NCBI RefSeq assembly: GCF_008727875.1
Contig: NZ_VTWS01000006.1
Location: 310,001 to 374,000, forward strand
Direction: 5' to 3'
Length of the DNA stretch: 64,000 nucleotides
From: Larkinella humicola
GTDB lineage: Bacteria > Bacteroidota > Bacteroidia > Cytophagales > Spirosomataceae
The notes under the pieces are model-generated. The model was not told where the DNA came from. It saw nothing but the letters and a program-made list of their open reading frames with translations, and made no database searches. This document shows positions 38,264 to 41,433 of the stretch, in pieces. Each line of letters begins with the position of its first letter. Position 1 is the first letter of the stretch. Position numbers and translations under genes: made by a program.

Positions 38264-38370
38264 GAGTTATTTCGCAGAGTTAAGCGGAGGAAATCAGAGT
38301 TTATCAGAGGGAAAAAATAAAAAACGCTGCTTAACTCTGATTTCCTCCGCTTAACTCTGCGAAATAACTC
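38264..38370. repeat. intergenic inverted repeat, family A copy 2
   Basis: Perfect 36-bp arms (38264-38299, 38335-38370; core CAGAGTTAAGCGGAGGAAAT) with a 35-bp AT-rich loop. Here it lies between divergent genes (creatininase and cydA), not after convergent ones like the other copies. Confidence 0.9.
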
Positions 38371-38460
38371 TTTTTATCACACTCTCGAAAATCTTGTTCA
38401 AAACCATTATTTCGTGTCCCGTTCCGTAGTAACTTGCCCCCATTCCCATCTCCACCGGCT

Positions 38461-39812
<1,352 letters not shown>

Positions 39813-39825
<13 letters not shown>

Positions 39826-40274
39826 TGAACGATGAACGATGAACATTCAGCTTGCGAGGTTTCTCTTTGTATTAAGAATAATGGTACGGATTAACTTCAA
39901 TAAGCTATTGGCGTCATTGTAAACACTAATAAACTCCGTATCAGTCAGGTAGTCAGTCGCTTTCAATAGCTCGAGCCAATAGATAACTTCATCGCATTCC
40001 TTTTGGGCAATACCCATTTTATTGATGAAATCAGCCTTACTAACGGCATTATCTGCTTCACGAATATTAGCACCAATAGAAGTGCCGGAACAAAGCAACT
40101 GTTTGCTCAAAACATATTCCTGTTTACTCTTCGTAATGTATTGAAACAGGCGGATGGCGCGGATGGCAAACTGAAAACTTTTTTCACGAACGATATTAAC
40201 TTTTTTCATGATCTAAATAGTAACGGTGGATACTCCATAAAGCTAAACCATTCATCGTTCATCATTCATAATTC
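39813..40274. mobile_element. candidate cassette: inverted-repeat-bounded four-helix-bundle gene inside cydAB
   Basis: Perfect 24-bp inverted repeats GAATTATGAATGATGAAC... at 39813-39836 and its complement at 40251-40274 enclose a reverse-strand gene. Next to the left repeat, GATGAAC is repeated three times in tandem (39825-39846). The whole 462-bp unit separates cydA from cydB, which are adjacent in nearly all genomes. Confidence 0.65.
39847..40209 (-). CDS. four-helix-bundle protein (23S rRNA IVS/bAvd-like family)
   Basis: 120 aa, all helical: SFQFAIRAIRLFQYI, SKQLLCSGTSIGANIREADNAVSKADFINKMGIAQKECDEVIYWLELL. The S-GTSIGAN-EA pattern defines the family found in 23S rRNA intervening sequences and, as Avd, in diversity-generating retroelements; most copies have unknown role. 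Codon use is AT-rich compared with cydA and cydB. It stands on the opposite strand between them. Confidence 0.88.
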   Translation of the reverse strand: MKKVNIVREKSFQFAIRAIRLFQYITKSKQEYVLSKQLLCSGTSIGANIREADNAVSKADFINKMGIAQKECDEVIYWLELLKATDYLTDTEFISVYNDANSLLKLIRTIILNTKRNLAS

Positions 40275-40288
40275 ATCGTTAAAAAATC

Positions 40289-41323
40289 ATGGACACAATC
40301 CTCGGTCTCGACCTTCCCACCTGGTGGTTTTTGCTGATCGGTGCGCTCATTAGCGGGTACGGTATTCTCGACGGTTTCGATTTGGGTGCGGGGGCCTTGC
40401 ACCTGTTTTTTCGGAAAGAACAAAGCCGCCGGATTGCCCTGAACGCCATCGGCCCGGTTTGGGATGGCAACGAAGTCTGGCTTGTGATTGGCGCGGGCGC
40501 GCTGTTTGCGGCCTTTCCGCTGGTGTATGGAACGCTCCTGTCAGTTTTTTACCTGCCGTTTATCCTGCTGCTGGTCGCCATTATTTTCCGAGCCATTTCG
40601 ATTGAATTTCGGAGCAAGGAAGAAATGACATGGTGGCGCACGTTGTGGGATGTGTGTTATTGTCTGTCGAGCAGCACCATTGCCTTGCTGTTCGGGCTGA
40701 TTCTGGGCAACCTGATTCAGGGCATCCCGCTCGACAAAGACTACCAGTTTGTCGGACGCTTGCGGGACTTCTTCAACCCTTATGCGCTGCTGATTTCGGT
40801 GACGGTTTTGTCACTGTTCATGCTACACGGAGCGATGTATCTCGCCATGAAAACCGAAGACCGGCTCTACGCCAAAATGACGATTCTGATCAACCAGACC
40901 AGTAAATTTTTCATTCTCTGCTTCATCACGGCGTCCATGGCCACGCTTATTTACGTACCGCACATGGCCGCCATTTTTCACAAATACCCCATTTTGTTCG
41001 CCTTGCCGGTCAGTGCGGTGCTGATTGTGTTGAACATGCGCCGGATGATCGAAAAACGGCGGTATTTGCGGGGATTCATTTCGTCAGCCGTCACAACGGC
41101 CCTGCTCCTGGTATTGTTTGCGTCCGGTTTGTATCCCAACCTGGTGCTGTCCAACTACGACGTGCGGGGTAACATCAGCATCTACGAAGCTGCTTCGACG
41201 GACAGTTCTTTGCGGACGATGCTGCTCTTTGCCGCCATCGGAATGCCCCTCGTACTGACCTACACGGTTTTTGTTTTCTGGACGTTTCGGGGGAAAGTGA
41301 AGTTGGAGGATACGAGTTATTGA
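40289..41323 (+). CDS. cydB: cytochrome bd ubiquinol oxidase subunit II
   Basis: 344 aa. N-terminus LPTWWFLLIGALISGYGILDGFDLGAG, then GPVWDGNEVWLVIGAGALFAAFP, both CydB hallmarks; about eight membrane helices. Partner of CydA. Expression may depend on read-through of the inserted four-helix-bundle gene or on a new promoter in the 79-bp gap. Confidence 0.93.
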   Translation: MDTILGLDLPTWWFLLIGALISGYGILDGFDLGAGALHLFFRKEQSRRIALNAIGPVWDGNEVWLVIGAGALFAAFPLVYGTLLSVFYLPFILLLVAIIFRAISIEFRSKEEMTWWRTLWDVCYCLSSSTIALLFGLILGNLIQGIPLDKDYQFVGRLRDFFNPYALLISVTVLSLFMLHGAMYLAMKTEDRLYAKMTILINQTSKFFILCFITASMATLIYVPHMAAIFHKYPILFALPVSAVLIVLNMRRMIEKRRYLRGFISSAVTTALLLVLFASGLYPNLVLSNYDVRGNISIYEAASTDSSLRTMLLFAAIGMPLVLTYTVFVFWTFRGKVKLEDTSY

Positions 41324-41326
41324 ACA

Positions 41327-41433
41327 AAGAGTTATATCGCAGAGTTGAGCGGAGAAGGCGGAGTTAAGCGGAGTTTTTTAAGAACTTCTCTGCTTAACTC
41401 CGCCTTCTCCGCTCAACTCCGCGATACAAGTTC
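41327..41433. repeat. intergenic inverted repeat, family A copy 3
   Basis: Arms about 41327-41373 and 41385-41433 pair over nearly 50 bp with a few mismatches (core GAGTTGAGCGGAGAAGGCGG) and an 11-bp loop. Between convergent cydB and the S41 gene; may serve as a two-way terminator. Confidence 0.85.

Follow-up and report, generated by a model that had tools for sequence, protein, structure and literature searches.

A four-helix-bundle gene inside a heptad-repeat palindrome between cydA and cydB of Larkinella humicola, a probable copy of a small dispersed element

The window analyzed in this report—a stretch of 64,000 nucleotides from the 7.86-Mb genome of Larkinella humicola—carries a small reverse-strand gene between cydA and cydB, enclosed by a perfect inverted repeat. 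The locus is composed of the following features.

38434..39825, forward strand: cydA, an open reading frame whose last codons and stop lie inside the left arm
39812..39836, no strand: left palindrome arm, 25 nt perfect, with heptads extending to about 39844
39847..40209, reverse strand: four-helix-bundle gene (S23/IVP, PF05635, TIGR02436), 120 aa, antisense to cydAB
40251..40275, no strand: right palindrome arm, 25 nt perfect
40289..41323, forward strand: cydB, with its start codon 13 nt past the right arm

A first-pass annotation of this DNA had described a reverse-strand gene between cydA and cydB within a perfect inverted repeat, which is confirmed by the arms at 39812-39836 and 40251-40275, although the repeat is perfect over 25 nt and not over the 24 bp originally given. 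It was also correct that the stop codon of cydA falls within the left arm, which is continued by three GATGAAC units. Both arms consist of degenerate 7-nt units (ATGAACG/TTCATCG) and, in the predicted RNA of positions 39790-40300, they form a stem that encloses the entire insert (z -3.84). There is no transposase among the reading frames between the two arms. The cyd operon is itself bordered by two gene-less hairpins (38264-38370 and 41332-41429) of another family, which has units of about 10 nt (CAGAGTTAAG type); in relatives both arms change in concert.

The 120-aa protein scores 91.6 bits against PF05635 (curated cut-off 33.8) and 100.8 bits against TIGR02436 (curated cut-off 24), and the earlier assignment of the gene to an IVS/bAvd-like family is upheld. 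Its predicted structure has four helices (mean pLDDT 92.5), and the solved folds closest to the model are 2rld (BT_0352, S23 family; TM 0.89 on query) and 2gsc (Xcc0516; TM 0.80), entries that contain five chains each. According to this model, the protein shares the fold of solved S23-family proteins. The Avd proteins of diversity-generating retroelements have the same fold as the modelled protein (4dwl, TM 0.76, and 8ub7, TM 0.78 on query), albeit with weak E-values (0.06-0.08). However, Avd needs a partner reverse transcriptase, and the Larkinella genome has no RVT_1 match at E<=0.001, while the control search was positive in 3 of 14 genomes. An RVT_1 partner for the four-helix-bundle gene, which we considered, is thus unsupported.

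Within the genus, cydB was located in eight of nine genomes, and the cassette lies between cydA and cydB in three of these eight (our own genome, G007 and G003), which means that it is not an insert shared by all relatives with diverged repeats. The idea that relatives would display an empty site is only partly correct: the gene is missing from five of the eight genomes, but most of these do not have a clean site. A gapped search of the cydA-cydB gap found hairpins built from a different type of repeat in G004 (score 20), G008 (33) and G002 (17), against maxima of 11, 10 and 14, respectively, in 100 shuffles. In G006 there is a marginal gene-less hairpin (12 versus a shuffle maximum of 11), and in G005 the same search found no hairpin (10 versus a shuffle maximum of 12), which counts against a mobile element. 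The cydA-cydB element thus occupies a place that in several sister species is taken by a different hairpin, and because gene-less hairpins of other types stand there in G004, G002 and G008, the cassette seems to have been exchanged for a hairpin and not just inserted. CydA ends in NPSPI or NPSLI in G002, G004, G005 and G008 and in arm-coded tails in the three carriers (NYE in our own genome, FEL in G007 and IEL in G003). Furthermore, in a cydB tree G004, which lacks the gene, is nested among carriers, and synonymous divergence differs between the gene and its neighbor (dS of 0.21 for the gene and 0.65 for cydB between G007 and G003; 0.32 and 0.23 between our own genome and G007). The cassette thus does not simply follow the genes that flank it, and by eye the three copies look like mosaics. 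Their dN/dS values (0.09-0.27) indicate that the protein is kept by selection.

Two other junctions of the genus, which from our reading of the sequence we take to be acrA-acrB and macA-macB, are each occupied in one of nine genomes (G008 and G004, respectively). In the genomes without the gene, hairpins of other families reach a threshold of 16 in five of eight cases for acrAB, five of eight for macAB and two of five for cydAB by ungapped search. Summed over the three junctions, 12/21 cells contain a hairpin, compared with 11/76 cells (6/25 gaps) in syntenic control gaps, a comparison between small sets with slightly differing search windows and cells that are not independent.

The arms of the cyd locus are one instance of a hairpin family found throughout the genome. 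When the 701-bp locus was searched against its own genome, 87 rows were returned—one for the locus, two for its arms matching each other and 84 elsewhere—where a single place may yield two rows, and the 84 rows elsewhere are restricted to the arms. All seven gene-less loci that we inspected form hairpins or near-hairpins in which a few tens of bases separate the arms, and hairpins with a perfect core occur at 13 places in the genome, versus none for a reversed control pattern. In a 464-kb sample consisting of the window and 20 evenly spaced genome stretches, there are 56 hairpins with a score of at least 18, versus none in block-shuffled copies. The self-match of their arms is 0.469 at lag 7 (0.448 at lag 14), and five of the 56 overlap coding sequence over more than half of their length. 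The repeats thus recur across the genome rather than being confined to the cyd locus, and gene-less hairpins with arms like those of the cyd locus are scattered over the genome that carries the gene. By eye, the loops of gene-less hairpins resemble the ends of the gene cassette no more than weakly. By eye, several heptad types coexist (ATGAACG, AAATGTA, GTTTACGG, GAGTTAA, GAGACAA, GATTGACC and GAGTGATT), and there are hairpin families of non-heptad design beside them. Two of the latter, the CCCCTAAATCCCCT and GGTAGCTCCGGAGGAGCG types, are abundant (L157, L158, L162, L165, L166, L168 and L169). A separate motif, GGCTGACGC or GGCTAACGC, is repeated in hairpins with differing heptads (12 of the 56 sampled, 27 occurrences in the 464 kb; L161, L162, L163, L166, L169, L170, L171 and L172).

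The Larkinella genome has six PF05635 genes, and for five of them the arms match a sampled gene-less hairpin with a score of at least 18; the remaining copy, L012, counts against our reading of the locus as a mobile element. Arms matching gene-less hairpins of our own genome were found for 22 of 29 copies from the genus and for none of 57 copies from other genomes of the phylum.

The association between gene and palindrome extends across the Bacteroidota, where 143 of 198 genomes have the PF05635 family at E<=1e-12. Our phylum set comprises one locus, the best-scoring copy, from each of 70 genomes, a choice that under-samples old or decayed copies; 30 of these loci came directly from the family search and 40 were added. 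At a score of 14 or more, inverted repeats flank the gene at 57/70 phylum loci and 29/30 genus loci, compared with 6/99 control genes; the controls are real genes from the same regions, as a cross-locus null was distorted by oppositely oriented orthologous pairs (99th percentile 33). When loci with homologous flanks were merged and the best member was counted, 29/33 phylum junctions and 11/11 genus junctions passed. The loci under the threshold (13/70 in the phylum and 1/30 in the genus) count against a mobile element. Direct repeats in place of palindromes can be rejected because their scores are at background (10/70 phylum loci, 4/30 genus loci and 6/99 controls), with the exception of the plasmid locus L187 (direct 73, inverted 15). 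The arms have a median length of 35 nt (n=86), and the 5' arm contains more G than C at 100 of 107 loci. Arm self-match is 0.478 at lag 7 (control 0.302) and 0.470 at lag 14, versus 0.245-0.326 at other lags. Among the classified copies of the phylum sample, 52/60 lie in tandem gaps, and 48 of these 52 are co-directional with both neighbors. The antisense copy in the window therefore has a minority orientation, and the notion that the gene is antisense by rule is rejected. The read-through or antisense-coupled control of cydB that the first-pass annotation proposed is conjectural.

The heptad follows the protein. We compared 5467 pairs of loci without homologous flanks, with reading frames chosen by BLAST, and found arm scores of at least 16 in 17/41 pairs with protein identity of 60% or more, 16/327 at 50-60%, 17/1686 at 40-50%, 8/1294 at 30-40% and 1/2119 below. 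Protein identity and arm similarity at these non-homologous sites are correlated with r 0.227, a value reached in none of 1000 permutations (maximum 0.100). The relationship holds across wide taxonomic distances: among pairs with at least 55% identity that join the Bacteroidota with other groups only, 7/19 pass, against a permutation mean of 0.37 and a maximum of 3. For example, arms of GGAGTCAGAAGTCAG type accompany proteins with 60-65% identity in Bacteroidota (L116 and L136) and in plasmid loci of the Nostoc group (L194, L195 and L198). The cyd-type gene itself is found at other loci with ATGAACG-type arms in Spirosoma utsteinense (72% identity) and in a Bacteroidetes MAG (58%). Gene and arms thus occur together, and the heptad tracks the protein lineage between sites and phyla. 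The correlation is nevertheless modest, and pairs with 50-60% identity mostly have unrelated arms, both of which count against the mobile-element reading. Where junctions are homologous and the proteins 50-60% identical, arms of different loci have for the most part lost their resemblance (median score 10, n=70, all loci having been selected for a within-locus palindrome of at least 14), showing palindromes that are kept while the sequence of their arms changes.

Relatives of the gene are present on 28 plasmid records, of which we examined 16 (14 cyanobacterial, one from Azospirillum and one from Gemmatirosa). At 15 of these 16 plasmid loci outside Bacteroidota, the inverted-repeat score is at least 14, L191 being below, and the L187 locus is mainly a direct array. 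The Azospirillum plasmid copy, L199, lies within a 23S rRNA gene (RF02541) with a heptad palindrome around the gene, which indicates that 23S intervening sequences (IVS) and intergenic elements share a design. A search of named genomes, whose single protein query reaches close relatives only, yielded eight loci; two of them represent the cyd locus in sister species and the remaining six (in Spirosoma, a Bacteroidetes MAG, Planctomycetota and Verrucomicrobiota) all have inverted repeats scoring at least 16. The pairing of gene and palindrome, repeated in several bacterial phyla, points to a single type of mobile element that has been overlooked. In addition, three cyanobacterial plasmid copies in heptad repeats are flanked by cas genes (L186, L187 and L193), the neighbors being either cas6 and cas4 or cas10 and a cmr3-family gene. 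They resemble the 18 IVP genes in cas loci reported in the available text of one paper (PMC3936711), and such genes may be insertions rather than cas genes.

Taken together, these findings make it probable that the cydA-cydB locus is a copy of a small dispersed element, composed of a PF05635 gene and a palindrome of ~7-nt repeats belonging to the same protein lineage, built like a 23S IVS and settled mostly in operon gaps. The original proposal of a small mobile cassette is thereby strengthened, given the presence of the gene at cydAB in three of eight genomes, the genome-wide repeats and the Spirosoma utsteinense gene found elsewhere in the same heptad type. In such a scheme, the gene and its cognate palindrome would be moved or copied as a whole unit, by a process that may target or replace hairpins, and would settle in operon gaps prone to contain them. 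Counting against movement of this kind, the unit contains no transposase and the genome no RVT_1 match. A ring-forming protein could bind its own heptads, and the four-helix-bundle gene itself may provide the element's own function, in which case the cassette would not be non-autonomous as first proposed. By analogy with 23S IVS, the RNA stem might fold the insert out of the host transcript or be processed by RNase III. If it folds the insert out, the arms need only be complementary and their sequence would be free to change.

An alternative, which we regard as unlikely, is that the hairpins came first—REP-like heptad hairpins of independent origin, with arms that are a property of the host—and that the gene is a passenger in hairpin loops that tolerate inserts in operon gaps. 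This would fit with gene-less hairpins being far more numerous than genes, with the occupation of the same junctions by hairpin families of unrelated design, and with the match between the arms of genus copies and the hairpins of our own genome. It is at odds, however, with heptads that track the protein lineage over sites and phyla, since a passenger would adopt the arms of whichever hairpin it hit, whereas the cyd-type gene keeps ATGAACG-type arms elsewhere in Spirosoma and in the Bacteroidetes MAG. Less probable still is a conserved operon regulator, in which RNA stem and protein tune how strongly the neighboring genes are expressed relative to each other, and the common anatomy results from selection for this job instead of mobility. 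The purifying selection on the protein, the preponderance of co-directional copies in tandem gaps and the occupation of some junctions in many genomes of the phylum are what a regulator would produce, but its patchy occurrence in the genus (at cydAB, acrAB and macAB alike), the functionally unrelated junctions, which include 23S rRNA and cas loci, and the antisense orientation of the window copy are not. Finally, it is very improbable that the hairpins, with or without gene, are REP-type elements mobilized in trans by a RAYT-like Y1 transposase: REP-like dispersal and seven Y1_Tnp matches in the genome speak for it, but such a palindrome stands beside none of the seven Y1_Tnp loci (inverted-repeat scores 8-14), and the heptad period and the linkage to the protein point to PF05635. 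An association in cis between a Y1 transposase and heptad hairpins, with 0/7 Y1_Tnp loci flanked, is unsupported.

The small dispersed element that we favor has evident counterparts among known systems. In Coxiella, the available text of one report (PMC4990558) describes a 23S IVS that ends in an inverted-repeat stem and in which the S23p ORF is preceded by three tandem heptamers, hence a gene of the same family in an inverted-repeat loop, as at the cyd locus. The same text considers S23p to be probably not expressed and its ORF to be decaying, which counts against the mobile-element reading. The window copy resembles a 23S IVS in having terminal inverted repeats, here perfect and predicted to pair in RNA around the insert. 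It differs in its location between the protein genes cydA and cydB rather than in rRNA and, unlike 23S IVS, in the dispersal across the genome of gene-less hairpins with the same arms.

A second parallel is with the heptameric simple-sequence repeats of bacteria, among them the cyanobacterial STRR. The arms and hairpins of Larkinella share with these repeats (STRR, TAACTGA and GGGAATC) a tandem unit of 7 nt, an intergenic location and a multi-copy nature. In the parts of the two reports available to us, TAACTGA (PMC4679880) and GGGAATC and GGGGAYT (PMC4692102) are described; horizontal spread of TAACTGA among cyanobacteria and Bacteroidetes is suspected, for which "no mechanism is evident" (PMC4679880), and 70 and 75 inverted pairs are reported for the heptameric repeats of Xanthomonas (PMC4692102). 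The latter text also states that the repeats of Xanthomonas and Nostoc are generally not found with mobile elements, which counts against our reading. The same parts of PMC4679880 and PMC4692102 tie no gene or protein to these repeats, while here each heptad type comes with a PF05635 lineage. REP/RAYT and CGTC-tagged palindromes, in what is available of PMC3733652, are likewise dispersed, extragenic and in some cases linked to a gene, with CGTC repeats said to be without a dedicated transposase. In contrast to the long heptad arms, these palindromes have short stems tagged at the end with GTAG or CGTC and, in REP/RAYT, the linked gene is a Y1 transposase, whereas the heptad-linked gene is not a transposase and the Y1 genes of Larkinella are unflanked.

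In the open-licence literature, we did not find PF05635 genes connected with heptad palindromes before. S23 proteins, 23S IVS and heptameric repeats are each known, and within that literature what is new is that a protein lineage goes with a heptad palindrome of its own outside rRNA. A broader hypothesis, which we put forward tentatively and hold to be possible but doubtful, is that S23/IVP proteins are the missing agents of bacterial heptameric repeats. A pentameric ring would bind the heptads of its own lineage, anneal or copy hairpins, and spread both the gene-bearing palindrome and gene-less hairpins into existing hairpin sites, so that 23S IVS, the IVP genes of cas loci and intergenic heptad hairpins would be one element class. 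About one unit per subunit could be bound, as suggested by the median arm of 35 nt (5 x 7) and the five chains in 2rld and 2gsc; the TRAP ring, for comparison, reads triplets. Our reading of the locus connects three subjects so far reported separately: how 23S rRNA intervening sequences arose and what S23 proteins do, how heptameric repeats originated and spread horizontally in cyanobacteria, Bacteroidota and other groups, and the IVP genes of CRISPR-cas loci. It predicts that every protein lineage recognizes its own 7-nt repeat.

Two minor observations concern particular insertion sites in the phylum. First, the junctions adjoining a gene that by our reading of the sequence is thiolase-like are occupied by PF05635 genes with differing heptads in several taxonomic families of the phylum (L009, L043-L045 and L082; the group of L067, L072, L073, L076, L077, L079 and L087), which may represent long retention or a preferred site. 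Second, in L070, L092 and L112 (as well as L107), the family gene is located within a large frame on the same strand, a DNA methyltransferase by reading of the sequence. This frame stays open across the insert in another frame than that of the gene, and the insert thus seems to be coding in two frames at these loci.
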